NCBI RefSeq assembly: GCF_012933465.1
Contig: NZ_JABBND010000017.1
Span: 1-64,000, forward strand
Direction: 5' to 3'
DNA from: Actinomycetospora sp. TBRC 11914
GTDB lineage: Bacteria > Actinomycetota > Actinomycetes > Mycobacteriales > Pseudonocardiaceae
Length of the DNA: 64,000 bases
The notes beneath the pieces are model-generated. The model saw only the letters and a program-made list of their open reading frames with translations, ran no database searches and was not told where the DNA came from. Shown piece by piece: positions 19,321 through 58,521 of the stretch (positions are counted from its first letter, which is position 1; every line of letters starts with the position of its first letter). Made by a program: the position numbers and the translations under genes.

Positions 19321-19644
19321 ATGATCTTCATCGCGGTCAAGTGGACCGTCAAGCCGGAGTACGCCGACCGCTTCCCCGAGCTGACGAAGGAGTTCACCGA
19401 CGCCACCCGGTCCGAGCCCGGCAACATCTTCTTCGAGTGGAACAAGTCCCTCGAGGAGGAGAACACCTACACCCTCGTCGAGGCGTTCCAGGACGACGCG
19501 GGCGGCGACCACGTCAACTCCGACCACTTCAAGAAGTTCGTCTCCGAGGCGCCGGACTACGTCGACACCACCCCGCGGATCATCAGCGTCCAGGGCGTCG
19601 ACGGGAACGGCTGGGGCGAGATGGGCGAGGTGAAGCCCCGCTGA
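19321..19644 (+). CDS. Putative quinol monooxygenase (ABM domain)
   Basis: A 107-residue ferredoxin-like alpha/beta-barrel protein (MIFIAVKWTVKPEYADRFPELTKEFTDATRSEPGN, then FFEWNKS and YTLVEAFQDDAGGDHVNSDHFKKF), matching the antibiotic biosynthesis monooxygenase/YgiN family. These cofactor-free enzymes oxidise quinols or related aromatics, usually as dimers. The start at ATG 19321 is clear. Its stop codon overlaps the proposed CTG start of the amidase, so the two are probably expressed together, under the divergent promoter region shared with the AraC gene. Confidence 0.85.
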   Translation: MIFIAVKWTVKPEYADRFPELTKEFTDATRSEPGNIFFEWNKSLEEENTYTLVEAFQDDAGGDHVNSDHFKKFVSEAPDYVDTTPRIISVQGVDGNGWGEMGEVKPR

Positions 19645-21164
19645 GCGGAGCCGCACCCGCCGTCGTCGTCCCGCCGCTCTGCGAGCTCGGCCTGGTCGAC
19701 CTCGCGGCGGCGATCGCCGCCCGCGAGGTCTCGTGCCGGGAGGTGGCACGCGCCCACCTCGAGCACGCCGACGCGGTGAACCCGACGGTCAACGCCCTGA
19801 TCGCGCGCCGCGACGCCGACGACGTCCTGGCCGACGCCGACGCGCGGGACGCCGAGCTGGCGCGCGGTGAGCACCGCGGGCCGCTGCACGGCGTGCCGCA
19901 GGCGCTCAAGGACCTCGCCGAGGCCGCCGGGCAGCCGTTCACGGCGGGCTCGCCCGTGTTCGCGGCGCGGGTCGGGGTCACCGACGCGCCGCACGTGGCG
20001 CGGATGCGCGCGGCCGGGGCGGTCTTCGTCGGGCGCACCAACACCCCGGAGCTCGGGCTCGGATCCCAGACCCACAACCCGGTCTGGGGTACGACCCGCA
20101 ACCCCTACGACCGCGCGCGCACCGTCGGGGGCTCGTCCGGCGGAGCGGCGGCCGCTCTGGCCACGCGGATGCTCCCGGCCGCGGACGGCAGCGACTACAT
20201 GGGCTCGCTGCGCAACCCGGCGGCCTGGGCGAACGTGTACGGGCTGCGGCCCTCGCGCGGTCGCGTCCCGGGGACGCCCGGCTTCGTCGCCCAGCTCGGC
20301 GAGGCCGGACCGATGGCCCGGACGGTCACCGACCTCGCCGCGCTGTTCGGGGTGATGACGGCGGGTGGGCCGGTGGGGCCGCTCGACCGCGCGGACCCGC
20401 TCGACCTCGCCGACCTGCGCCCGGCCGACCCGGCGGGGCTGCGGGTGGGGTGGCTCGGCGACCTCGGGGGCCGGCTGGCGACCGAGCCCGGCCTGCTCGC
20501 GCTCGCGCGCGGCCCGGTCGACGTCCTCGCCGGGCTCGGGGCGGTGGTCGAGGACGTGGTACCGGCGTTCGACCTCGACCGCCTCTGGGACGCCTTCCTG
20601 GTCTGGCGCTGGTGGAACTCGGTCGAGATGGCCCCGCTGGTCGCCGATCCCGACCTGCGCGCGCAGCTCAAGCCCGAGCTCGTGTGGGAGATCGAGCACG
20701 GGACGGAGCTCTCCGCGCGGCAGGTGTCGTGGGCGGCGGGCGTGCGCGCGGAGTGGTGGGCGGCCGTCGTCGGGCTGTTCGAGCGGTTCGACGTGCTCCT
20801 CGCCCCGGCCACCCAGGTCCACCCGTTCCCCGCCGAGGTGTCGTGGCCGGCCGAGATCGCCGGCCGGCCGATGGACACCTACCACCGGTGGATGGAGACG
20901 GTGATGCCGTGGTCGATGGCCGGCGTCCCGGTGCTCGGGATGCCGGCGGGGTTCACCGCGGACGGCCTGCCGGTGGGGGTCCAGCTGATCGGGCCGCCCG
21001 GCGGGGACCGTCGGGTGCTCGAGGTGGCGCTGACGCACGAGGCGGCGACGGACTGGTCGGCCCGCCGCCCGCCCCTGCTGACTCCGGCAGCAACCGCGAC
21101 TGCGCCGCCGCCCCGAGGAGCACCAGCGCCGCGACCGCCCCGACCACCGCGAGGGCCGTCGTGA
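19641..21164 (+). CDS. Amidase (amidase-signature family)
   Basis: A 507-residue enzyme of the amidase signature family. The Ser-cisSer-Lys triad can be placed: Lys90 in QALKDLAEA, the Ser pair in TVGGSSGGAAAALA, and the nucleophile in GSDYMGSLRNPA. It hydrolyses a carboxamide or aryl-acylamide; the substrate is unknown. I see no ATG or GTG near the homology start, so I take the CTG at 19641, in a CTGA overlap with the previous gene and preceded by GAGGTG. The catalytic domain ends near 21080, and the last ~28 codons (Pro/Arg/Ala) overlap the convergent exporter gene by 212 bases in total. Confidence 0.85.
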   Translation: MSGAAPAVVVPPLCELGLVDLAAAIAAREVSCREVARAHLEHADAVNPTVNALIARRDADDVLADADARDAELARGEHRGPLHGVPQALKDLAEAAGQPFTAGSPVFAARVGVTDAPHVARMRAAGAVFVGRTNTPELGLGSQTHNPVWGTTRNPYDRARTVGGSSGGAAAALATRMLPAADGSDYMGSLRNPAAWANVYGLRPSRGRVPGTPGFVAQLGEAGPMARTVTDLAALFGVMTAGGPVGPLDRADPLDLADLRPADPAGLRVGWLGDLGGRLATEPGLLALARGPVDVLAGLGAVVEDVVPAFDLDRLWDAFLVWRWWNSVEMAPLVADPDLRAQLKPELVWEIEHGTELSARQVSWAAGVRAEWWAAVVGLFERFDVLLAPATQVHPFPAEVSWPAEIAGRPMDTYHRWMETVMPWSMAGVPVLGMPAGFTADGLPVGVQLIGPPGGDRRVLEVALTHEAATDWSARRPPLLTPAATATAPPPRGAPAPRPPRPPRGPS

Positions 21165-22512
21165 ACGACGCGGACGCGGCCGCCACGAGCGACGGCTCGG
21201 TCGCCGCGGCGAGCATGCCGCCGAGGGTGTCGCCGGGGACGCCCGCCGGCAGCCCGGCGCGGTAGGCCGCCGCCGCGACGCTGCCCAGCACCGCCACCCC
21301 GAGCGCCCCGCCGAGCTCGAAGCCGGTCTCGGAGATCGCCGACGCGGCCGCGGCCCGCTCGGGCGGCGCGTGGGCGAGCACGAGGTCGGTGGTCAGCGGC
21401 TCCACCGTCGCGATCGCCATCCCCGCCAGCGCCATCCCGACGACGACGGCCACCGGACCGGCCCCGACGAGCAGCAGCGCGAGCGATCCGAAGCCGGCCG
21501 CGGCGACGACGAGCGCCCCGCCGACCAGCCGCCGGACCGTGACCCGACGGGCGAGCCGGCCCGCCACGAGCGCGCCCGCCATCCCGGCGAGGGTGCCCGG
21601 CACCAGCCACAGCGCGGCCGTCAGCGGGGACATCCCGGCCACCAGTTGCAGGTACTGCGGCACGAGGACCAGCAGCCCGACCAGGGCGAACACGCTGAGG
21701 AGGTTGGTGAGCACCGGGACGGAGAACGCCCGGCGGGAGAAGAGCGCCAGGTCGAGCAGCGGGTCGGCGACGGTCCGCTGCCGGTGCACGAACCACGCGC
21801 CCGCGCCGAGCCCGAGCACCCCGGCCACCACGCCCGCCGTCGTGACCCCCTCGGTCGCGAGGGACTTCAGCGCGTAGACCAGCGGCAGCAGCGTCGTGAG
21901 CGCCAGCGCCGCCGAGGGCAGGTCGAACCGGCCCGGGCGGGGGTCGCGGCTCTCGGGCAGCAGGAACGGGCCGACGGCGAGCAGCGCGACGCAGATCGGG
22001 ACGGCGACGAGGAACACCGACCCCCACCAGAAGTGCTCGAGCAGCCACCCGCCGACGACGGGTCCCGCGGCGGCGCCCGCCGAGAACGTGGCCGCCCAGA
22101 CGCCGATCGCCCGACGGCGGGCCCCGGGCTCCGGGAAGATCGTGCGGATCAGGGAGAGCGTCGAGGGCATGAGGGTCGCCCCGCCGACGCCGAGCAGGGC
22201 GCGGGCGGCCACGAGCGCGCCGGCGGTGGGCGCGAAGGCCGCGGCGAGCGAGGCGAGGCCGAACACCGCGGACCCGGCGAGCAGCAGCCGACGACGGCCG
22301 AGCCGGTCGCCGAGCCCGCCCGCGACGACGAGCAGGCCGGCGAGCACGAACGAGTAGACGTCGACGATCCACAGCTGCTCGGCCGCGCCGGGACGCAGGT
22401 CCTCGGAGATGGCGGGCAGGGCCGCCCCGAGGACGGTCATGTCGAGGGTGATCAGCAGGACGGGGGTGGTCAGGGTCGCGAGGGCGAGTCGGCGCTGGGC
22501 CCGGACGGACAT
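20953..22512 (-). CDS. DHA2-type MFS drug exporter
   Basis: A 519-residue exporter with 14 hydrophobic helices. LDMTVLGAALPAISEDL in helix 1 (the D1 motif of the 14-helix family), GGLGDRLGRRRLLL (A-motif) and GPVVGGWLLEHFWWGSVFL (C-motif of antiporters) identify DHA2 multidrug or antiseptic exporters such as QacA/EmrB. The last ~40 residues are low-complexity and overlap the amidase. ATG 22512 is the natural start. The divergent TetR gene and a 17-base inverted repeat between the two starts make a classic self-regulated export module. Confidence 0.88.
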   Translation of the reverse strand: MSVRAQRRLALATLTTPVLLITLDMTVLGAALPAISEDLRPGAAEQLWIVDVYSFVLAGLLVVAGGLGDRLGRRRLLLAGSAVFGLASLAAAFAPTAGALVAARALLGVGGATLMPSTLSLIRTIFPEPGARRRAIGVWAATFSAGAAAGPVVGGWLLEHFWWGSVFLVAVPICVALLAVGPFLLPESRDPRPGRFDLPSAALALTTLLPLVYALKSLATEGVTTAGVVAGVLGLGAGAWFVHRQRTVADPLLDLALFSRRAFSVPVLTNLLSVFALVGLLVLVPQYLQLVAGMSPLTAALWLVPGTLAGMAGALVAGRLARRVTVRRLVGGALVVAAAGFGSLALLLVGAGPVAVVVGMALAGMAIATVEPLTTDLVLAHAPPERAAAASAISETGFELGGALGVAVLGSVAAAAYRAGLPAGVPGDTLGGMLAAATEPSLVAAASASFTTALAVVGAVAALVLLGAAAQSRLLPESAGAGGGPTSPSPPRASAPPRAPDGPRRAARSAGPPPAGRPR

Positions 22513-22532
22513 GACGGCTCCGTTTCTCAACA

Positions 22533-22575
22533 GTCCGGACGGTACAGTTACAGATCGAAACTGTACCAGCCGGAC
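22533..22575. promoter_or_regulatory. TetR operator between exporter and regulator
   Basis: An inverted repeat with 17-base arms (22533-22549 and 22559-22575), matching except at two positions; the inner arms GGTACAGTT and AACTGTACC are perfect. It lies 21 bases before the exporter ATG and 31 bases before the regulator ATG, so binding would block both genes. Confidence 0.75.
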
Positions 22576-22605
22576 GGTGCAGGAACGGGGCGATAGGGTG
22601 CCCGC

Positions 22606-23151
22606 ATGCCCCGGCCCTCCCAGCGGGACGCCATCGTCCGGGCGTACGTCGACCACGTCGTCGCCCACGGGCCGGACGCGGTGACCCTCGAGGGGGTCGC
22701 GACGCGGGCCGGGGTCTCCAAGGGCGGGCTGCTGTACCACTTCGGCTCGAAGGAGGCCCTGCTCACCGGGTTCCTCGACTGGGTCCGGGAGCTCACCGAG
22801 GCCGACATCGCCACCGCGCGCGCGGCCGCGGCGGCGGGGGAGGAGCCGGTGGCGCGCTACTACCTGCGGACCTCGGCCGACGACCCGCAGCGCGACACCG
22901 CGATGTTCCGCAGCATGGTCGCGCTGCTGACCCTCGCGGGGGCGGAGGAGGCGGCCGCGGTCGCGGCGCGCGAGGTCATGGCGTCGTGGCGCGACGTGCT
23001 CGTCGAGGAGGCGGGCGACACCCTGACCGGCGACCTCGTCGCCGCGCTCGGCGACGGCATCTACCTGCGCGCCATCGCGGGCGAGCCCTCGACGGAGCTC
23101 GCCCGCGACTGGGACGCGGTGCTCGCGCGGCTCGGTCCGCGCGGCGGATGA
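22606..23151 (+). CDS. TetR-family repressor
   Basis: A 181-residue TetR protein. The N-terminal HTH (residues ~8-52: AIVRAYVDHVVAHGPDAVTLEGVATRAGVSKGGLLYHFGSKEALL) is complete, and the remainder is the helical ligand and dimer domain. It probably represses the divergent DHA2 exporter and itself through the inverted repeat between them, and is released by an exporter substrate. ATG 22606 is the natural start. Its last codons and stop lie in a 24-base tandem repeat that continues to the 3' end of mosA. Confidence 0.88.
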   Translation: MPRPSQRDAIVRAYVDHVVAHGPDAVTLEGVATRAGVSKGGLLYHFGSKEALLTGFLDWVRELTEADIATARAAAAAGEEPVARYYLRTSADDPQRDTAMFRSMVALLTLAGAEEAAAVAAREVMASWRDVLVEEAGDTLTGDLVAALGDGIYLRAIAGEPSTELARDWDAVLARLGPRGG

Positions 23152-23206
23152 GCCCGTGGTCCGCGCGGCGGGTGAGCCCGGTCAGTCCGCGCGGAGGGTG
23201 AACCCG
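23134..23206. repeat. 24-base tandem direct repeat across two convergent 3' ends
   Basis: Three adjacent copies of a unit like GGTCCGCGCGGCGGGTGAGC at 23134, 23158 and 23184; the third is degenerate. The first holds the stop of the TetR gene, and the stop of the convergent mosA gene lies at the start of the third. It looks like a local duplication. Confidence 0.6.
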
Positions 23207-24015
23207 CCGGGCCGCCCCGCGAGGGCGTCGGCGATCCGGCCGCGCACGGTGCCGTCGACGACGGCGAGCGAGCGGACGTGCTTGGCCCGCGGCAGCAGGT
23301 CGAGCACCACGCGGTCGAACGGCAGCGCGCCGTCGCGGTCCGCGGCGTCGGGCACGGTCAGCGAGGCGCCCTCGAGCCCGGCGAGCGCCTCGGTGTCGCG
23401 CACGTAGGTCAGCGACCGGGCCCCGAACGCGTCGGCGAGCAGGAGCGCGCCCGCGTCGCTGCGGTGCACCGGCAGCCGGCCCCCGGCGGCGGGGAACTCG
23501 TGCACGCCGTACGGCGGGTAGCCGGTGGAGACGGCGGCCGGGGCGGCCGCGAGGTGCACGGGCAGCTGGCGGGCGACGGTGCCGCGCGGCAGGTACGAGA
23601 CGCCGTCGGCGGCCAGCAGCGCCGCGACCAGGTGGCCGTTCTGCTCGGCCTCGGTGGCCGCGAGACCGGCCAGCGCGCCGGCGGGCAGGCCGAGGTCGAG
23701 GCCGACCCCGAGCACGTGGCGGGCGCGCACGCCCGCGCCGGTGAGCACGAGCAGCCGGCCGCCGCCGTCGGGCCGGGCGCCGCCGGCGAACGTGGCGCGC
23801 AGCTCCTCGACGACGCCGAGCAGCACGTCACCGCCGCGGTCGACGATCGACGAGCCGCCGAGGACCACGACGTCGAGCCAGGGCAGCAGCCGGCGCGGGG
23901 GCTGCTCGCGGTGCGGCTCGGCGGCGGCGAGGCGCTCGGGGTCGAGCAGGGTCTGGCGCATGAGCGCCGACGGCACGTCCTTGGGCTGAACGTCCTTGGT
24001 GTCCTGGGCCGTCAC
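23182..24015 (-). CDS. mosA: Molybdenum storage protein, alpha subunit
   Basis: A 277-residue amino-acid-kinase-fold protein that aligns by eye along its length with MoSto alpha of Azotobacter: SALMRQTLLDPE, RLLPWLDVVVLGGSSIVDRG, LVLTGAGVRARHVLGVGLDLGLP, AEQNGHLVAALLAADGVSYL, TGYPPYGVHEFP, PVHRSDAGALLLADAFGA and ARHVRSL-type helices. In MoSto, alpha and beta subunits form a heterohexameric cage that packs polyoxomolybdate/tungstate clusters using ATP. The GTG at 24015 follows GAGGAGG; an upstream extension to 24090 would overlap mosB. It sits 31 bases after mosB, so the two are an operon. No nif, modABC or molybdopterin genes are nearby. Confidence 0.88.
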   Translation of the reverse strand: MTAQDTKDVQPKDVPSALMRQTLLDPERLAAAEPHREQPPRRLLPWLDVVVLGGSSIVDRGGDVLLGVVEELRATFAGGARPDGGGRLLVLTGAGVRARHVLGVGLDLGLPAGALAGLAATEAEQNGHLVAALLAADGVSYLPRGTVARQLPVHLAAAPAAVSTGYPPYGVHEFPAAGGRLPVHRSDAGALLLADAFGARSLTYVRDTEALAGLEGASLTVPDAADRDGALPFDRVVLDLLPRAKHVRSLAVVDGTVRGRIADALAGRPGGFTLRAD

Positions 24016-24046
24016 GACGGCCACCTCCTCGTGGGGTGCGGGGCGA

Positions 24047-24841
24047 TCAGGCCGTGATGAGGGTGCCGACGTGCTCGCCGGCGAGGGCACGGGTCAGCAG
24101 GCCGGGCCGCAGTCCGTTGACGACCTGGACCGTGCGGACGTGGCGGGCCGAGCGCATGAGCTCGAGGACGCCGCGCTCGACGACGAGGTCGGGCAGGTCG
24201 GCCCGGAGCAGCTCGTCGACGGTGATCCGGGGGATCAGTTCGGCCGACGGGTCGTTCTTCGGGTTCGCCGTGTAGAGGCCGTCCTCGTCCTTGACGTAGA
24301 TCATCCCGGCGCAGCCGTAGGTCTCGGCGACGAGGTAGCACCCGGCGTCGGTGCGGTAGGGCGGGATGACGCCCGCGTCGGGCACCCGCTGCCACATGTC
24401 GTAGGGCGGCATGCCGGCGAAGACGGCCGCGCGCACCTCGGAGAGGCGCAGCGGCAGCGACGCGAGCGCGTCCGGCTCGACCACGGGGATGCCGTGCTTG
24501 GCGAGCAGGTAGCCGAGCATCGTCGCGTTCTGCCCGGCGACCGAGGCGCCGAGGTCGGAGAGCACGCCGGTGGGCAGCCCGACGCCGGCCGCGGTCGCGT
24601 AGGCGTGGCGGGCGCGGGTCCCGCCCCCGGTGCCGATGAGCAGCCGGTGCGTCGCGGTCGCGGCGACGATCTCCTCCAGCAGGGGGAAGACCGCCTCCCG
24701 TCCCCGATCGATGAGACTCTGGCCACCCACCTTGACCACGGTCACGTCCGGGAGGATGCGCTCCTCGGGGGCCGCGGCCACGGCCGCCACCACGTCGGGA
24801 TCATCGAGTGAACCGCTCGTGAGCAGCGGCGCGAGGTCCAT
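24047..24841 (-). CDS. mosB: Molybdenum storage protein, beta subunit
   Basis: A 264-residue amino-acid-kinase-fold protein with close similarity by eye to MoSto beta: ILPDVTVVKVGGQSLIDRGR, LLIGTGGGTRARHAYATAAG, LGASVAGQNATMLGYLLAKH, GMPPYDMWQRVPDAGVIPPY, TDAGCYLVAETYGCAGMIYV, KDEDGLYTANPKN and QVVNGLRPGLLTRALAGEHV ending GTLITA. The last block is nearly diagnostic. It binds ATP and, with the alpha subunit, builds the cage that stores Mo or W as polyoxometalate. First gene of the mosB-mosA pair, starting at ATG 24841 and divergent from a DUF3040 membrane gene. A metal-responsive promoter was not recognised. Confidence 0.92.
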   Translation of the reverse strand: MDLAPLLTSGSLDDPDVVAAVAAAPEERILPDVTVVKVGGQSLIDRGREAVFPLLEEIVAATATHRLLIGTGGGTRARHAYATAAGVGLPTGVLSDLGASVAGQNATMLGYLLAKHGIPVVEPDALASLPLRLSEVRAAVFAGMPPYDMWQRVPDAGVIPPYRTDAGCYLVAETYGCAGMIYVKDEDGLYTANPKNDPSAELIPRITVDELLRADLPDLVVERGVLELMRSARHVRTVQVVNGLRPGLLTRALAGEHVGTLITA

Positions 24842-24931
24842 GTCCCCAGTGTGGCCGAACCCCCGGCGGTGCCCGCTTCACCGAGGGTGGCCGACCCCAC
24901 GGTGTGCACCGGGGGGTCCTGCGGTCACTCT

Positions 24932-25285
24932 GTGGAGGTGCAGCAGGGTGACCAGGCCGGCGACGACCCCACGGCGGAGAAGGACACGCGTCCCGAACGC
25001 TCCCCCATAGACCGGCGGTTCGCCGCGATCGTCGGCGCCCTGCGCGCCGCGGACCCGCGGTTCGCGCGGCGCGTCTCCGAGCCCCGTCGGCTGCGCAGCG
25101 GCTCGATCATGATGCTCACCGGGCTCGTCGCCACCGTGCTCGTCGGCATCCTGCCGCTCGCGGTGGGCATCCAGACCCAGGTCGCGGTGCTGCTGACGAT
25201 CGGCGCGATCGGGATCGCGTGCGCCCCGGTCGTCGTGCCGCCGCTGGTCGGCGTGCTGCTGCACCGCATGCGTCCGGCCTGGTAG
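24932..25285 (+). CDS. DUF3040-like small membrane protein
   Basis: A protein of ~117 residues: a charged N-terminus, then IDRRFAAIVGALRAADPRFARRV (the DUF3040 pattern of an acidic amphipathic helix with 'DPRF'), and two hydrophobic helices near residues 60-105. The family is common in actinomycetes and of unknown function. The frame is open from a GTG at 24851, only 10 bases from the mosB start, which leaves no room for promoters; I therefore prefer GTG 24932 or 24938, but the start is uncertain. It converges with the lipase gene four bases downstream. Confidence 0.65.
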   Translation: MEVQQGDQAGDDPTAEKDTRPERSPIDRRFAAIVGALRAADPRFARRVSEPRRLRSGSIMMLTGLVATVLVGILPLAVGIQTQVAVLLTIGAIGIACAPVVVPPLVGVLLHRMRPAW

Positions 25286-25289
25286 GCGC

Positions 25290-26168
25290 CTACCGGAGGG
25301 CCCCCTCGATCCACTCGAGCAGCTCGCCCTCGACCTCGTCGCGGTTCGTCTCGTTGAGGATCTCGTGGCGCCCGCCCGGCCACACCCGGAACGTGACGTC
25401 CTTGAGCCCCGCGCCGCGGTAGCGCTCGGAGAGGGCCTGGGCGACGACGACGGGCCCGCCCACCGGGTCGTGCTCGCCGACCGCGATGTACACCGGCAGG
25501 TCCGGGCGCATCGCCGCGAGCCGCTCCGGGTCGGCCACCGCCCGCCCGCCCGCGATCATCTCGGAGCCGCCGGCCGGGTCGAGCCCGAAGCCGCACCACG
25601 GGTCCGCCACGTAGGCGTCGACCTGGGCCTCGTCGCGGGAGAGCCAGTCGTAGTCGGTGCGCGCGGGGGCGAACGGCGCGTTGAAGGCGGACAGGTCGAT
25701 CGGGGCCGAGGTGTCGATGGCGCCCTCGATCTGGTCGAGCAGCGTCGTGCCGGTGAGCACGACCGCGTCGACGTCCTCGGAGTGGTCGAGCAGGTACTGC
25801 TGCGCGGCGAAGGAGCCCATGCTGTGCCCGAGCAGGACCAGCGGGACCCCCGGGACGTCCTGGCGGCCGAGCTCGACCAGCCGGCCGATGTCCCCGACGA
25901 GCTCGCCCCACCCGCCGGGTCCGAGCACGCCGGGCTCGGTCCCGTTCGCCTGCGCGGTGGCGCCGTGGCCGCGGTGGTCCTGGCCCTGCACGACGAAGCC
26001 CGCGGCGGTGAGCCGGTCGGCGAGGTGCCCGTAGCGCCGCACGTGCTCGCCCATCCCGTGCGTGAGCTGGACGACGCCCCGCGGATCGCCCGCGGGGAGC
26101 CAGCGGAACACCGCGACGGTGTGTCCCCCCGCGGAGGGCAGGTCGATACGGGTGGGCTCCGTCGGCAT
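25290..26168 (-). CDS. Alpha/beta hydrolase, monoacylglycerol lipase-like
   Basis: A 292-residue serine hydrolase of the Hydrolase_4 (monoglyceride lipase/lysophospholipase) type. LTHGMGEHVRRYGHLADRL is the N-terminal HGxGEH oxyanion motif, GHSMGSFAAQQYLL contains the nucleophile Ser, GEHDPVGGP the acid and GGRHEILNE the catalytic His. DHRGHGAT is also family-typical. It should split monoacylglycerols or lysophospholipids in the cytoplasm or at the membrane; no signal peptide is present. ATG 26168 is the start. It converges with the DUF3040 gene. Confidence 0.88.
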   Translation of the reverse strand: MPTEPTRIDLPSAGGHTVAVFRWLPAGDPRGVVQLTHGMGEHVRRYGHLADRLTAAGFVVQGQDHRGHGATAQANGTEPGVLGPGGWGELVGDIGRLVELGRQDVPGVPLVLLGHSMGSFAAQQYLLDHSEDVDAVVLTGTTLLDQIEGAIDTSAPIDLSAFNAPFAPARTDYDWLSRDEAQVDAYVADPWCGFGLDPAGGSEMIAGGRAVADPERLAAMRPDLPVYIAVGEHDPVGGPVVVAQALSERYRGAGLKDVTFRVWPGGRHEILNETNRDEVEGELLEWIEGALR

Positions 26169-50730: not shown

Positions 50731-51582
50731 ATGGCCGAGCAGGACAGGGGAGCGGGGCGCCACGCGGCGCCCGCGGCAGCGACGGCGGGCACCGGCACGG
50801 TGGAGGCCGCCGCCCCGACCGCGCCCTTCGCGAGCGCACCCCCGCAGCCGGGCACGACGACGGCCCGGGGCGCCGCCCCGGCGACCGGACCCGCCGTCGG
50901 GACCCCCGCGACGGGCCGCCGCGCGGCGGACGACCCGGAGCCGGCCGCCGTCGACGACCTCGACGACCTCGCCGACGACGACGAGGCCCTCGACCTCGGC
51001 GCCCCCGTCCGCGGCGTCGGTTGGGTGCTGCTGATCGGCGGGCTCGTCGGCGCGGTCGTGGCGCTGGTGCTGACGATCGAGAAGCTCGATCTGCTCGAGA
51101 ACCCGGACTACATCCCGAGCTGCTCGATCGACCCCGTCCTCTCCTGCGGGACGATCATGAAGACCTGGCAGGCGTCGGTGCTCGGGTTCCCGAACCCGGT
51201 GATCGGCCTGCTGACCTTCCCGGTGGTGGCGGCGTGCGGCGCGGTCGTCGTCTCCCGCACGGAGCTGCCCCGCTGGGTGTGGCTGGCGCTGCAGGCCGGC
51301 TCGTTCGCCGGCGTGCTGTTCATCCACTGGCTGATCGTGCAGAGCCTCGTCGTCATCCACGCCCTGTGCCCGTACTGCATGGTCGCGTGGGTCGCTGTCA
51401 TCGCGATCTTCTGGTTCACGACGGTGCACAACCTGCGCGAGGGCAACCTCGGCGGTGCGCCCGCGGGCGAGACGCTGGCCCGCCGTCACGGGTGGGGCCT
51501 CGCGGGGTGGTACCTGCTCGTCGTCGTCGCGGTGGTCGCCTCGTTCCCGGCCTACTTCGGCGCGATGGTCGGCCTGGGCTGA
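50731..51582 (+). CDS. Vitamin K epoxide reductase-family thiol oxidase
   Basis: A 283-residue membrane protein: a long acidic, low-complexity N-terminus (to ~residue 92), then four or five helices with the VKOR cysteines: C131 and C139 in SCSIDPVLSCG (loop pair) and C213-x2-C216 in CPYC (quinone-side pair). VKOR re-oxidises DsbA-type partners with menaquinone and so drives disulfide formation in exported proteins. A DsbA-like gene lies 3.2 kb further on. ATG 50731 has GAGGAG upstream; an ATG at 50641 gives 30 extra basic residues. CopA follows in the same direction. Confidence 0.9.
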   Translation: MAEQDRGAGRHAAPAAATAGTGTVEAAAPTAPFASAPPQPGTTTARGAAPATGPAVGTPATGRRAADDPEPAAVDDLDDLADDDEALDLGAPVRGVGWVLLIGGLVGAVVALVLTIEKLDLLENPDYIPSCSIDPVLSCGTIMKTWQASVLGFPNPVIGLLTFPVVAACGAVVVSRTELPRWVWLALQAGSFAGVLFIHWLIVQSLVVIHALCPYCMVAWVAVIAIFWFTTVHNLREGNLGGAPAGETLARRHGWGLAGWYLLVVVAVVASFPAYFGAMVGLG

Positions 51583-51754
51583 GAGCCCGCCCGCCGCGCC
51601 TGCTCCGGACGGACCAGCCCGGCGACCGCTCGTCCGGCGCGTCCCGCCGGTCGACGGCTCCCGACCCCGCGGTCCTCAGCTCCGGCGGGTGCGACAGGGA
51701 GCGCTGCCTACCGTCGGCGCGCCCCGGACCCCGCTCCCCAGGAGTCTCGCGCCG

Positions 51755-54229
51755 ATGACCGTGTCGTCCCCCGCGCCCACCTGCGTCACCGAGCTCGCCG
51801 TCACCGGCATGACGTGCGGGGCGTGCACCTCCCGGATCGAGCGGCGCCTCGGCAAGCTCGGCGGCACCACGGCCGAGGTCAACCTCGCGACCGGCCGGGC
51901 CCGGGTCACCCACGTCGGCGACCCCGAGGTCCTCGTGCGCACCGTCGAGAAGCTCGGGTTCGGCGCGTCGGTGGTGACGACGACGGCGGGTGCTGCTCCG
52001 GACTCGAGCGAAGGGGCCCTTCGCTCGGTAGAGCCGGTCGACGGGGACCCTCGCGCATCGTTGCCCGGCCCGCGAGTTCCGAGCGAGGGGGCCCTTCGCT
52101 CGGTAGAGCCGACCGAAGGTGCCCTTCGCCCGAGCGCGCCCGGCTCGGACACGCAGGGGGCCGACGACGACGGGCCGGACCCCGACGCCGACCCCGAGGT
52201 CGCCGATCTGCGCCACCGCGCCCTCGTCTGCCTCGCCCTCGCGCTGCCGGTGATCGCGGTCGCGATGACCGAGGCCATCCAGTTCCGGTACTGGCAGTGG
52301 TTCTCGCTGGTGCTGGCCACGCCGGTCGTGTTCTGGGGCGGGTGGCGGTTCCACCAGGCGGCGTGGCGCCACCTCCGGCACGCCTCGTTGACCATGGACA
52401 CGCTGGTCTCGGTGGGCGTGCTCTCGGCGTACGGCTGGTCGGTCGGCACGCTGTTCTACGGTGAGGCGGGCCTCGGCGGGGTCCGGCACGGCCTGACGAT
52501 CATCCCGACGCCCGACCTCTACGGCGGCACCCGGACGATCTACCTCGAGGCGGCCGTCGCGATCATCACGGCCGTCCTCATCGGGCGCTGGATCGAGATG
52601 CGCGGCCGCAAGCAGGCGCTCGCCGCGGGCGGGGCGGGCGCCGGCGAGCCCACGCTGTCCGACGCGGTCCTCGTCGTCGCGGACCGCGCTCTGCGGGTGC
52701 CGGTCGGCAACGTGGTCGTCGGCGACCACGTCGTCGTCGCCGAGGGCGCGACGGTGCCGGTGGACGGGGTCGTGGCCGAGGGGGTCGCGACCCTCGACGT
52801 CGCCGCGATGACCGGCGAGTCGGTCCCCGCCGAGGCGGCGGTCGGCACCCGCGTGCTGGCGGGCACCCGATGCGTGTCGGGCCGGGTCCTGGTCCGCGCG
52901 ACCCAGGTCGGCACCGACACCCAGTGGGCCCGCCTGACCCGACGGGTCCAGGACGCCCAGCTCGGCAAGGCGTCGGTCCAGCGGCTGGCGGACAAGATCG
53001 CCGGCCGGTTCGTCCCGGTCGTGCTCGTGCTCGCGGCCTACACCTTCGGCTTCTGGTGGTTCGCCGACGCCGACGCGGGCTTCGCGATCGCCGCCGCCAT
53101 GGCGGTGCTCGTCGTCGCCTGCCCCTGCGCGCTCGGCCTCGCCACCCCGACGGCGCTCGCCGTCGCGGCCGGCCGCGGCCGCCGGCTGGGCATCCTCATC
53201 CGCGGCCCGCAGGTGCTCGAGACGTCGCGGAAGGTCGACACCGTGGTGCTCGACAAGACCGGCACCGTGACCACCGGCCGGATGGGCCTGCGCAGCGCAC
53301 ACCTCGGTGCGGGCGTCGACGCCGAGGCGGTCTGGCGCCGCGTCGTCGCGCTCGAGACCGACGTCGACCACCCGGTGGCGCGGGCGCTCGTGGAGGCCGG
53401 ACGCGCAGCGGAGCGGAGCCGGACCATCGAGACAGCGCCGGTCGCCGGGGTCGGGATCGCCGAGGGGGTCGAGGTCGTCGACGGGCTCGGCGTCCGCGGC
53501 ACCGTCGACGGGACCACGGCCGTCGTCGGGCGCCGTCGCCTCGTGGAGTCGGCCGGCGCGGACCTGCCCGACGACCTCGACATTGCCCACCGCGACGCGG
53601 AGGCCACCGGCGCGACGGCGGTCGTGCTCGCCTGGGCGGGCCCCGACGGGGTCCTCGCCGCCCGGGCCGTGCTCGCGGTCGCCGACACCGTCCGGCCGAC
53701 GTCGGCGGAGGCGGTCGCTCGGATGCGGTCGATGGGGCTGCGCCCGGTGCTCCTGACCGGCGACAACGCGGCCGCGGCGCACGCGGTGGCCGCCGAGGTC
53801 GGGATCGCGGCCGAGGACGTCGTGGCCGAGGTGCTGCCGACCGAGAAGGCCGACGTCGTCGAGCGACTGCGCGGGGAGGGCCGGGTCGTCGCGATGGTCG
53901 GCGACGGCGTCAACGACGCGGCCGCCCTGGCCCGTGCCGACCTCGGCCTCGCGATGGGCGGCGGGTCGGCGCTCGCCGTCGACGCCGGGGACCTGACGCT
54001 GGTCGGGGACGACCTGCGCGGCGTCACCGACGCCCTGCGCCTCGCCCGCCGCACGCTGTCGACGATCCGCGGGAACCTCTTCTGGGCGTTCGTCTACAAC
54101 GTCGCGGCGCTGCCGCTGGCCGTGTCCGGACTGCTCAACCCCATGATCGCGGGCGCCGCGATGGGCCTGTCGAGCGTGTTCGTCGTCGGCAACAGCCTGC
54201 GGCTGCGCCGCTTCCGGCCGGAGGCCTGA
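51755..54229 (+). CDS. copA: Copper-exporting P1B-type ATPase
   Basis: An 824-residue heavy-metal P-type ATPase. One N-terminal HMA domain (MTCGACTSRIE, C21 and C24), an odd linker (~residues 84-125) that encodes three partial copies of a palindromic repeat (SEGALRSVEP...), then eight helices with the CPC motif at ~455 (ACPCALGLATP), MTGESVP, the phosphorylated Asp500 in DKTGT, and MVGDGVNDAAALARADLGLAMGGG. CPC identifies Cu(I) transport, so copper export from the cytoplasm is expected. ATG 51755 follows AGGAG. No CsoR or CopZ gene lies next to it. The remaining length is normal; only the linker is unusual. Confidence 0.93.
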   Translation: MTVSSPAPTCVTELAVTGMTCGACTSRIERRLGKLGGTTAEVNLATGRARVTHVGDPEVLVRTVEKLGFGASVVTTTAGAAPDSSEGALRSVEPVDGDPRASLPGPRVPSEGALRSVEPTEGALRPSAPGSDTQGADDDGPDPDADPEVADLRHRALVCLALALPVIAVAMTEAIQFRYWQWFSLVLATPVVFWGGWRFHQAAWRHLRHASLTMDTLVSVGVLSAYGWSVGTLFYGEAGLGGVRHGLTIIPTPDLYGGTRTIYLEAAVAIITAVLIGRWIEMRGRKQALAAGGAGAGEPTLSDAVLVVADRALRVPVGNVVVGDHVVVAEGATVPVDGVVAEGVATLDVAAMTGESVPAEAAVGTRVLAGTRCVSGRVLVRATQVGTDTQWARLTRRVQDAQLGKASVQRLADKIAGRFVPVVLVLAAYTFGFWWFADADAGFAIAAAMAVLVVACPCALGLATPTALAVAAGRGRRLGILIRGPQVLETSRKVDTVVLDKTGTVTTGRMGLRSAHLGAGVDAEAVWRRVVALETDVDHPVARALVEAGRAAERSRTIETAPVAGVGIAEGVEVVDGLGVRGTVDGTTAVVGRRRLVESAGADLPDDLDIAHRDAEATGATAVVLAWAGPDGVLAARAVLAVADTVRPTSAEAVARMRSMGLRPVLLTGDNAAAAHAVAAEVGIAAEDVVAEVLPTEKADVVERLRGEGRVVAMVGDGVNDAAALARADLGLAMGGGSALAVDAGDLTLVGDDLRGVTDALRLARRTLSTIRGNLFWAFVYNVAALPLAVSGLLNPMIAGAAMGLSSVFVVGNSLRLRRFRPEA
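52006..52127. repeat. Palindromic repeat inside the copA coding sequence
   Basis: Two copies of a 21-base perfect inverted repeat (10-base arms around one base) at 52006-52026 and 52081-52101, each followed by GGTAGAGCCG, and a third partial copy (CGAAGG-TGC-CCTTCG) at 52113-52127. All are in frame and translate to SEGALRSVEP-like units between the HMA domain and the first helix. The neighbouring sequence is ordinary coding DNA. Confidence 0.85.
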
Positions 54230-55705: not shown

Positions 55706-57691
55706 TCAGTGCCGACGACGGGCGAGGTCGGCGAGCATCGCGTTGTAGGCGGCGAGCTCGCCGTCGCCGTCCCGGTCGGCGTGGCGGTCGTGCCGCGTGC
55801 CCTCCCGGTCGTCGTGGCGCGACCACTGCACGAGCAGCGCGATCACCACGGCGAGCAGCGGGACCTCGCCGGCCGCCCACGCGAGGCCGCCGCCGAGGCT
55901 CTGGTCCGCCAGGAGGTCGGGCACCCACGGCAGCGCGAGGTCGCCGAAGAATCGCTGCCCGATCACGGTGTCCGCCCCGAAGATGGCCACGCCGAAGAAC
56001 GCGTGGAAGGGCATCGAGGCGAGCAGCAGCGCGAGCCGCGCGACGTGCGGCAGCGTCCGCGGGGCCCGGTCCACCCCGATGACCAGCCAGAAGAACAGGT
56101 AGCCGGTCACCACGAAGTGCAGGTTCATCAGCTGGTGGGCCCAGTGGTAGGGCAGCGCCGCGCCGTAGAGCGGCGAGAGGTACAGCGCGTAGAAGGAGCC
56201 GACGAAGAGCACGAGCGCGACGACGGGGTGGGTCAGGAACCGCGACACCGGCGAGCCGAGCAGCGAGAGCAGCCAGGCGCGGGGCCCGTCGAGCGCCGAC
56301 CCGTCCTCGCCGGCGGGCGCCGGCGGCACCGCGCGCAGCGCGAGCGTCACCGGCCCGCCGAGCACGAGCAGGATCGGCACCAGCATCGAGAGCAGCATGT
56401 GGCTGCCCATGTGCACGCTGAACATCGCCATCGCGTACTCGCCGAGCCCGCTCGTCGTCGTCCACGCGGCCAGGGCGCAGCCGGCGAGCCAGGCGACGGT
56501 CCGTCCCGGCGGCCAGGTGTCGCCGCGCCGGCGCAGCCGCAGCACCCCCGCGACGTAGAGCCCGGCGAGCGCCACGCACACCACGTCGGCCAGCACGTTC
56601 ACCCGTCCCGGCCCGAGCAGTCCGAGCACGGTCGGCGGACCCGGCAGGTCGAACCCGAGCAGCGTCTCCTGCGCGGACGCCGGGCGCAGCAGCCCCGGGG
56701 GCAGCCCGCTCGCGGCCAGCCCCGTCGTGACCGCCGCGAGCCCCAGCGCCGTCACCGTCCACCCCACGGGCAGCCGCGGGAGCACCAGCGGCAGCGCGGC
56801 CGCGACGACCAGCACGAGCGTGGCGCCCGCGACCAGGCCGTAGAGCGTCGTCCACCCGCCGCGGACCAGGTACAGGTCCACGACGACGAGGCCGGCGAAC
56901 GCCGCCGGCGCGGCGACGCGGGCGACGTCCCGGGTCCGGCGCGCGACGACCTCGCCGTCGGGACGACGCCGGGCGCGGTGGCGGTCGAGCGCGACGGTGG
57001 TCCCGAACCAGGCGGCCAGCGCGACGGCGGTGAGGACCGCCGCGTCGGTGGCGATGTCGTGGCCCGCGCCGACGCTCGCGACGTGGCCGGTGGCGACGGG
57101 TGCGACGACGGCGAGCAGGGCGGGGACCAGCGCGCCCACCGCGGTCCGCCAGGAGAACGTGACCCGGCACATCACCGCGACGACGCCGGCGGCCACCGCG
57201 GCGACGAGGAAGCCCGCGGGCTCCTCGAGGGCGCCGACCGAGGCGAGGAAGGCTTCGGGGGTCCCGAGGACCCGCGCGTCACCGCCGGTCCCGACGACGA
57301 CCGTGAGCGGCACCGTGACCGAGGCGGCCAGTGCCCAGAGCGCGGCGGCGGTGCCGGCGCGGCGCACCGCGGCGTAGCCGTCGGCCGACAGGGCGCGGGC
57401 CCCGGTGCGGGAGGGGAGCACGCCGACGGCCGCGACGAGGCTCCCGAGCGTCAGGCCCGCCGCGAGGACGACGACGGCCCGGACCAGCGGTAGGGCCACC
57501 CGCAGCGCCGTCGCGGGGGCGCTGACGCCGAGGGCGCGGTAGGGCGCCTCGCCCCAGGCGCCGACGGTGAGGACGACGGCGACCACGGCGAGCGCCGTCG
57601 CGGCGAGCGCGACGACGACGCGCAGGGCGGCGCGCGGGGGTGCCGGGTCGGGCGCGGGCGCGCGGTCGAGCGGGGGAGCGGTGGTGCTCAC
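55706..57691 (-). CDS. CopD-CtaG fusion membrane protein
   Basis: A 661-residue membrane protein with about 16 helices. The N-terminal ~330 residues are a CopD-type copper-resistance domain (ATGHVASVGAGHDIATDAAVLTAVALAAWFG and VVVDLYLVRGGWTTLYG); the C-terminal half is a Caa3/CtaG domain with MFSVHMGSHMLLSMLVPILLVLGGPVTLALR and HWAHQLMNLHFVVTGYLFFW, keeping the His/Met residues missing from the CtaG at 28897. It is probably a copper-handling protein that feeds cytochrome oxidase. Its GTG (57691) overlaps the stop of the anti-sigma gene in GTGA. The His/Asp-rich tail ends in an acidic region. Confidence 0.88.
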   Translation of the reverse strand: MSTTAPPLDRAPAPDPAPPRAALRVVVALAATALAVVAVVLTVGAWGEAPYRALGVSAPATALRVALPLVRAVVVLAAGLTLGSLVAAVGVLPSRTGARALSADGYAAVRRAGTAAALWALAASVTVPLTVVVGTGGDARVLGTPEAFLASVGALEEPAGFLVAAVAAGVVAVMCRVTFSWRTAVGALVPALLAVVAPVATGHVASVGAGHDIATDAAVLTAVALAAWFGTTVALDRHRARRRPDGEVVARRTRDVARVAAPAAFAGLVVVDLYLVRGGWTTLYGLVAGATLVLVVAAALPLVLPRLPVGWTVTALGLAAVTTGLAASGLPPGLLRPASAQETLLGFDLPGPPTVLGLLGPGRVNVLADVVCVALAGLYVAGVLRLRRRGDTWPPGRTVAWLAGCALAAWTTTSGLGEYAMAMFSVHMGSHMLLSMLVPILLVLGGPVTLALRAVPPAPAGEDGSALDGPRAWLLSLLGSPVSRFLTHPVVALVLFVGSFYALYLSPLYGAALPYHWAHQLMNLHFVVTGYLFFWLVIGVDRAPRTLPHVARLALLLASMPFHAFFGVAIFGADTVIGQRFFGDLALPWVPDLLADQSLGGGLAWAAGEVPLLAVVIALLVQWSRHDDREGTRHDRHADRDGDGELAAYNAMLADLARRRH

Positions 57692-58521
57692 GCCACCTCC
57701 CGGCCCCGCCGGCGCTCGCGGGCCACCGGCCCGAGACCGTTCCGCCGCGGGGGCACCGGCCTCCCGGTCTCGGCCGGGGGCGTGTCGACGACGACGGCGT
57801 CGTCGGGGGTCCGCACCGCGCGCGGCGCCGGACCCGGGTCGTGGCGCGCGCGGCCGCGGGCGACCGCGACGGCGAGCACGAACCCGACGAGCAGCACCCC
57901 GTGGCTCGCCACCCGGTCGGGCTCGACCCGGCCCGCGGCGAGGTCGAGGCCGCTCAGGACGGCCAGCGCGACGATGAACACCCCGAGCACGGGGAGCAGG
58001 CCCGCGAGGTGGCGGGTCCACCAGGCGCCCGCCAGGAAGGCCGCGCCGAGTGCCAGGTTCCAGGCCGCGGTCTCGTGGCCCATGTGCGCCATGTCGGCGC
58101 CGCCGAGCATGGCCGAGCCGTCGCCGTGGCCGATGAGCCCGACGAGCGCCGCCACCCCCAGCAGGATCTGGACGACGCCGACCGCGGCGAGCGCCAGCCG
58201 CGCCGCCGCCCGCCGTCGGGAAGGCCGGGGCGCGGCCGGGAGCACCCGCGCGACGAGGTCGGGGCCCGCCTCGGCGGGGCCGGTCCGCGTGAGCCGGGTG
58301 ACGACGGCGGCCTGTTCGCGCCAGTGGGTGCAGGCCGGGCAGCCCGTCAGGTGGGCCGCGACGGCGTACCGCAGCGCCGGGTCGCCCTCGCCGTCGAGCT
58401 CGGCCGAGAGCTCCTCACGGCAGGCGGCACAGTCCAGGAGACCCATGCCGGTCAGGTCGTCCGGGAGGCCACGCCGGTTCCCGGCGAGGGGCACGACCCG
58501 GCGGGGGCGGTCAGGGTTCAC
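57688..58521 (-). CDS. Zinc-finger anti-sigma factor with membrane domain
   Basis: A 277-residue protein. The N-terminus carries DCAACREELSAELDGEGD and AVAAHLTGCPACTHW, a ZAS zinc finger (H57-x3-C61-x2-C64 with C34), followed by four or five hydrophobic helices with DMAHMGHETAAW in a loop, whose Met/His cluster could bind copper. The C-terminus is Pro/Arg-rich. It should sequester the SigC-like factor encoded just upstream; the genes overlap by 11 bases. GTG 58521 has GGGAGAGG upstream; ATG 58446 is an alternative that begins nearer the zinc finger. Confidence 0.85.
   Translation of the reverse strand: MNPDRPRRVVPLAGNRRGLPDDLTGMGLLDCAACREELSAELDGEGDPALRYAVAAHLTGCPACTHWREQAAVVTRLTRTGPAEAGPDLVARVLPAAPRPSRRRAAARLALAAVGVVQILLGVAALVGLIGHGDGSAMLGGADMAHMGHETAAWNLALGAAFLAGAWWTRHLAGLLPVLGVFIVALAVLSGLDLAAGRVEPDRVASHGVLLVGFVLAVAVARGRARHDPGPAPRAVRTPDDAVVVDTPPAETGRPVPPRRNGLGPVARERRRGREVA

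Follow-up and report, generated by a model that had tools for sequence, protein, structure and literature searches.

The closest described counterpart of the genes reported here is the molybdenum storage protein (MoSto) of Azotobacter vinelandii, AvMoSto, which is built from an alpha (MosA) and a beta (MosB) subunit. MoSto is defined by an (alpha-beta)3 hexamer that takes up about 100 Mo atoms at the expense of ATP. Its loading is reportedly driven by ATP through pumping at beta, with beta Met149 as a gate and a role for the arm of alpha. In the available part of a study of the metal clusters, Glu129 and His156 of alpha are covalent ligands of an octamolybdate (Mo8), a W3 cluster is bound by three symmetry-related histidines and the other clusters are held mainly by van der Waals contacts (PMC4504029). 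MoSto is elsewhere described, in the accessible portions of the texts, as being without known homologs (PMC6448029) and as belonging to "some N2-fixing organisms" (PMC11980592). A literature search for molybdenum storage in actinobacteria or MoSto in Pseudonocardia returned no paper, in a coverage with most subscription journals outside it, and prior notice is possible.

The window, a stretch of 64,000 nucleotides from Actinomycetospora sp. TBRC 11914 with 72-79% G+C (host genome of 6.52 Mb in 63 contigs), carries at 23182-24841 two adjacent minus-strand frames that match MoSto beta and alpha over nearly their full length. The first-pass annotation had reported a mosBA locus at this place in an actinomycete, and both points were confirmed: the host is an Actinomycetospora, and the nearest named relative at the locus is A. 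endophytica, with a beta subunit 92% identical to that of the window. The two genes and the residues discussed below, numbered as in AvMoSto, are the following.

24047..24841, minus strand: mosB, MoSto beta subunit of 264 aa, first of the two genes (from sequence match, tree and selection)
24731..24733, minus strand: beta Lys corresponding to AvMoSto beta K42 of the ATP site, kept
24410..24412, minus strand: beta Met corresponding to AvMoSto beta M149, kept
24260..24292, minus strand: beta nucleotide loop KDEDGLYTANP, intact
23182..24015, minus strand: mosA, MoSto alpha subunit of 277 aa (from sequence match, tree and predicted model)
23863..23865, minus strand: alpha Val replacing Lys45 of the ATP site (alignment)
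23587..23589, minus strand: alpha Pro replacing Glu129, a covalent Mo8 ligand (alignment and ligand paper)
23554..23556, minus strand: alpha His corresponding to His140, kept (alignment)
23506..23508, minus strand: alpha Gly replacing His156, a covalent Mo8 ligand (alignment and ligand paper)
23326..23400, minus strand: alpha stretch replacing the nucleotide loop, 11 residues shorter and without the DGIYTADP motif (alignment)

The mosB product was matched to AvMoSto beta (2ogx_B) with an E-value of 7.9e-109 over query residues 2-264, at 66% identity and with zero gaps. The best UMP kinase reached only 1.3e-8, more than 300 bits below MoSto. For the mosA product the match to 2ogx_A had an E-value of 2.4e-62 (53% identity to AvMoSto alpha); no UMP kinase was found in this search, and besides MoSto chains the entries with E < 1 were three adenylate cyclase chains (E 0.04-0.05). 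An AlphaFold2 model of alpha based on a 45-row alignment (pLDDT 83.5, pTM 0.80) gave MoSto chains as top matches in VIA-align, with Z scores of 28.7-30.2 against 21.6 for the top-ranked UMP kinase; the same list contained entries with H156A (6h6w) and Kb42S (6ris) in their titles. The mosB product scored below the cut-offs of both PyrH models, with 27.9 bits for the bacterial (cut-off 243.9) and 54.3 bits for the archaeal one (cut-off 158.05), and the mosA product had no match to either. In both proteins AA_kinase was the sole Pfam family above cut-off, and no NCBIfam model passed, which may be the reason why eight of ten records of MoSto-like genes on Azospirillum plasmids carry a uridine or UMP kinase label.

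On the coding strand the gene order is mosB followed by mosA, the same as in A. vinelandii (locus L081). With its start taken at GTG 24015, mosA begins 31 nt past the mosB stop. A GAGGAGG, read from the window sequence, lies 8 nt upstream of this GTG, which appears better placed as the start than 24090. This is the single MoSto pair of the genome, the third match lying at the position of the genome's own pyrH on contig C23. Comparison with A. endophytica yielded dN/dS values of 0.127 for beta and 0.193 for alpha, and both genes are under purifying selection.

MoSto beta was detected in five of 396 sampled genomes of the phylum, the window's own included, and in 30 of 297 genomes of the family. 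There it occurs in three genera, with nine of the 18 same-genus genomes listed, 12 genomes of a second genus, taken as Pseudonocardia, and nine of genus g239. The related loci used for comparison were the best 80 of 133 relatives, a sample in which distant forms are under-represented. Each of the 15 named loci of Pseudonocardia and Actinomycetospora had both genes, with one alpha truncated at a contig end. Three less typical arrangements were also encountered. The genome of Rhodoblastus sphagnicola (G696) has two MoSto loci (L065, L109). At L123 (3162-4873, genome G213) two adjacent MoSto-like genes, both nearer to beta than to alpha, stand beside MerR-TOBE, ModA and ModB genes and form a divergent pair that perhaps branched early. 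A lone MoSto-like gene at L124 (857-1657, genome G306), for which no second match was found in the genome at E 1e-30, is possibly a one-subunit form; this type of gene occurs in one of 36 genomes of its class, G306 itself.

The nucleotide site of beta is strictly conserved. K42, G44, G45, M149, P150, P151 and Y152, as well as K189, D190, E191, D192, G193, N198 and P199, are invariant in all 43 full-length rows (32 distinct) from three genera, the window included.

The alpha subunit differs by phylum at both covalent Mo8 ligands. Glu129 was found in none of the 35 distinct actinobacterial rows, that of the window included, vs 64 of 65 proteobacterial rows, and His156 in none of the 35 (one gapped: L049, which ends before residue 156) vs again 64 of 65. 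Three loci have no alpha-type row (L007, L038, L006) and are hence outside the 35. His140, which we take to be the residue that supplies the three symmetry-related histidines on the threefold axis, is present in 34 of the 35 actinobacterial rows, the window's among them, and in 65/65 proteobacterial ones. Loss of the cage-lining residues, which the first-pass annotation had named as evidence against its reading, is thus seen in part: Glu129 and His156 are replaced by Pro and Gly, and His140 is retained.

At the ATP site of alpha, Lys45 occurs in a single actinobacterial row of 35 as against all 65 proteobacterial rows. Since Lys stands at this position in 47 of 48 beta rows, the other being a gap, and also in the UMP kinase of the genome, loss of Lys45 from alpha is the likely direction of change. 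The loop motif DG[IV][YFC][TS] was present in 0/9 Actinomycetospora, 0/16 Pseudonocardia (one truncated), 6/8 g239, 2/2 other and 58/65 proteobacterial rows, the pattern being strict enough to be missed in seven of the 65 proteobacterial rows also. To judge from the alignment, the ATP site of Actinomycetospora alpha is degenerate, with Lys45 and the loop motif both gone. Residues V11, S13, Q18, T19 and L20 of the N-terminal arm of alpha are each conserved at 95% or more in both phyla.

In a quick tree of 104 rows, the proteobacterial alpha and beta sequences each formed one clade (SH-aLRT 100 and 99) and the actinobacterial rows fell outside both. In each subunit the window sequence forms a pair with that of A. 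endophytica (support 99 and 100), and one alpha type descends through three genera. UMP kinase, on a long outgroup branch, lies outside both subunit groups; neither subunit groups with it, in line with the assignment to MoSto. Several branches of this tree are long and the order among the actinobacterial lineages is unsure. A recent acquisition from Proteobacteria was considered and is unsupported, the actinobacterial rows not being nested in the proteobacterial clades.

Close to mosBA in the window are genes for an amidase, a DUF3040 protein, an alpha/beta hydrolase and an MFS transporter paired with a TetR regulator, together with proteins of the CtaG and FtsW types. Four states of the site between the amidase and DUF3040 genes were seen in congeners and the window. 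Both mosBA and the MFS-TetR pair are present in the window (19500-26168); G614 has amidase-mosBA-DUF3040; G437 and G513 have amidase-MFS-TetR-DUF3040, with mosBA at another place in the genome; and G653 (L138) has amidase-DUF3040-hydrolase without mosBA, the first two matches being 40 bp apart, in an assembly 59% complete in which mosBA could be elsewhere in the genome. These states indicate that mosBA is gained and lost, or relocated, as one unit. Presence and absence of mosBA and of the MFS-TetR pair appear independent between the same amidase and DUF3040 genes (L138, L139, L140, L141). Further along the window, at 51455-54226 and 55709-58021, an HMA-domain P-type ATPase lies near a Caa3_CtaG protein, perhaps for copper handling.

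The nifD model (TIGR01282) was unmatched in all 34 MoSto-bearing actinobacterial genomes, the window's genome among them, whereas 41 of 45 MoSto-bearing proteobacterial genomes had a match (46 loci in the 45 genomes, 19 Bradyrhizobium loci left out). Other molybdenum enzymes are encoded in the window's genome, with six PF00384 matches, all off the mosBA contig C9, and 12 PF20256 matches, none on C9 among the matches listed (3 of 12). No nif, mod, moa or molybdoenzyme gene was found among the 42 Pfam-scanned genes of the 61 in the window, mosA and mosB included. The genome's ModB above cut-off lies, among the matches listed, on contig C1, clustered with relatives of MerR-TOBE and ModA. The absence of nitrogenase, molybdate-transport and cofactor genes around mosBA, as first described from the window, was thus borne out among the 42 scanned genes and, as far as matches were listed, in the genome searches.

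The possible recipients of stored metal were compared within the genus. PF20256 counts were 7-12 in nine MoSto-positive genomes and 5-10 in nine MoSto-negative ones, and PF00384 counts 3-6 and 1-10 respectively, so that co-occurrence points to no client enzyme, these counts showing no trend with MoSto presence. Two PF00384 genes of the window's genome (G000:C1:491023-492282 and G000:C1:481947-483326) have one in-frame TGA each and probably encode selenocysteine formate dehydrogenases. A PF00384 gene with one in-frame TGA occurs in all 18 congeners, MoSto-bearing or not. A. chiangmaiensis DSM 45062, which carries MoSto (L050), is reported in the available part of PMC7176365 to have three selenocysteine formate dehydrogenases and to remove formate in a selenium-dependent manner.

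A link with molybdate transport was found in other actinobacteria. Outside Pseudonocardia and Actinomycetospora, 13 MoSto-bearing actinobacterial genomes were available (nine of g239 and four others), and in eight of these a ModB-like permease lies within about 5 kb of mosBA, among the matches listed. Seven of the eight also have a MerR-TOBE regulator and a ModA-type protein, recognized by Pfam in four (L120-L123) and by similarity in three (L125-L127). In the eighth (G306, L124) the neighbours of the MoSto-like gene are a ModB-like permease, a TOBE-domain ABC ATPase and a binding protein of the PBP_like_2 type. In the other five (G475, G497, G533, G549, G597) ModB is on other contigs than mosBA, among the matches listed. 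The MerR-TOBE, ModA and ModB genes beside mosBA in seven relatives support a putative molybdenum or tungsten role for the actinobacterial clade. No such linkage was seen at the 21 Pseudonocardia and Actinomycetospora loci (L040-L054, L129-L134, some sharing a genome), and the role in these two genera is therefore suggested by descent. At proteobacterial loci a ModB-like match above 100 bits was found in the available flank, short in some cases, at five of 65.

A promoter motif shared between mosB and the MerR-TOBE/mod operon was also sought: the upstream regions of 13 mosB loci, of 10 TOBE loci and of five from g239 and G092 were aligned set by set, and no common block was visible by eye. In G100 the mod genes near mosBA have a gene for a Ferritin_2 domain protein immediately upstream (L122, 3573-4193).

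We take the pair in the window to be a distinct actinobacterial MoSto variant and not the Azotobacter type, since the predicted alpha subunit is without Glu129 and His156, the marks of that type. The contrasts in residues and in nif follow one deep phylum split and count as about one event, so that ligand loss and nif absence are not independently replicated. A Mo8 site driven by nitrogen fixation was rejected: four Proteobacteria with no nifD match (L058, L060, L100, L104) keep both Glu129 and His156, and the site thus tracks descent, not nif.

The reading that we favour, and hold to be probable, is that mosBA encodes a MoSto-type molybdenum or tungsten cage loaded by the ATP sites of beta, with alpha as wall and lid, altered clusters and clients other than nitrogenase. 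The products of mosB and mosA would assemble into an (alpha-beta)3 cage, into which molybdate or tungstate is taken up and kept as a reserve of oxo-clusters. ATP at the intact beta sites would drive loading much as in Azotobacter, and the alpha subunit of Actinomycetospora, which presumably no longer binds nucleotide, would serve as cage wall, its conserved N-terminal arm forming a lid above the beta site. The stored clusters are probably unlike the Azotobacter set, because both covalent Mo8 anchors are gone and His140 is retained; clusters may still form at the threefold histidines and along a nonpolar wall. The reserve would supply ordinary molybdenum or tungsten enzymes, such as formate dehydrogenases and those of the xanthine/CO-dehydrogenase type. 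A reserve for enzymes other than nitrogenase had been suggested from the window, and this proposal stands in part: the lack of a nifD match, the molybdenum enzymes present and the mod linkage in other actinobacteria speak for it, and the enzyme counts, which do not follow MoSto in the genus, against it.

Beyond this, it is conceivable, and we put it forward tentatively, that a second MoSto class exists in Actinobacteria. Use of ATP would be limited to its three beta subunits, alpha would be a kinase that is dead but retained as wall and lid, and the metal core would start at the His140 site and grow there with no Mo8 anchors. On this view the octamolybdate site of Glu129 and His156 would have been added later, in the branch of the Proteobacteria, most of which fix nitrogen. 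This polarity, with the site putatively gained later in Proteobacteria, is weakly supported. In the paralogous beta, the place of alpha His156 holds His in none of 48 rows (one gap), one divergent relative having His, and that of Glu129 holds Glu in seven of 48.

It is unlikely that tungstate is the main cargo of the cage, with tungsten-dependent formate dehydrogenases being served and an altered alpha wall suited to tungsten clusters. The divergent relative G306 adjoins a PBP_like_2 binding protein, a type that presumably includes the tungstate-binding TupA, which would agree with such a cargo. AvMoSto also takes tungsten (PMC6448029, in its accessible part; titles of PDB 2ogx and 7zse), and the probable selenocysteine enzymes of the 18 congeners can be molybdenum or tungsten enzymes, according to the available text of PMC7176365. 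However, in seven relatives the transporter beside mosBA has a binding protein of the ModA type (SBP_bac_11), and among the matches listed a ModB above the cut-off of the molybdate model occurs in 34 of 43 genomes, that of the window being one of them.

Equally improbable is that storage has been lost or is fading, the changes in alpha being decay and the pair a relic or a protein with another task (sensing, buffering or an ATP hydrolysis that depends on molybdate). Decay is argued against by purifying selection on mosB and mosA, their conserved pairing, the invariant beta site, His140 in all but one of 35 rows and the long inheritance of one alpha type across three genera, although alpha is without both Mo8 ligands, the ATP-site Lys and the loop, and the genes are patchy in the genus and show no mod linkage there. 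That the two genes encode nothing other than amino-acid kinases of a common kind, UMP kinases for example, as AA_kinase as sole Pfam family and the weak PyrH matches of beta might suggest, can practically be dismissed in view of the bit-score difference for beta, the lack of any PyrH match for alpha, the separate pyrH and the position of UMP kinase on the tree.

Under the favoured reading of a molybdenum or tungsten cage, a conserved actinobacterial MoSto clade without a nifD match, several members of which lie by molybdate-type transporters, would point to a system not tied to nitrogenase. Because these natural variants have neither the alpha ATP site nor the Mo8 ligands, they allow direct tests of what each subunit and each individual cluster site contributes.

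Among known systems, a reserve of molybdenum or tungsten oxyanions is also provided by molbindin-type storage proteins (Mop, and the tungsten-binding Tub of Eubacterium limosum), as described in the available part of PMC11980592. These are small TOBE-domain proteins, and neither protein of the window matches TOBE in Pfam. Bacterial and archaeal UMP kinases (PyrH) share the amino-acid-kinase fold, with Z of about 20-21.6 to the modelled alpha, but the sequence match to them is weak for beta and absent for alpha, and the genome has its pyrH elsewhere, on C23. The pair is most like the MoSto of Azotobacter vinelandii (MosA/MosB; PDB 2ogx, 4f6t, 6gu5), with which it shares paralogous adjacent subunits in the same order, near-full-length homology, the predicted fold of alpha, the ATP-site residues and Met149 of beta, and His140 and the N-terminal arm of alpha. 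It differs from AvMoSto in its alpha subunit, where the ATP site is degenerate and the Mo8 ligands Glu129 and His156 are missing, and in its host, in which nifD had no match. In this comparison the actinobacterial pair appears to be a second form of a rare storage system, one that has been little described.
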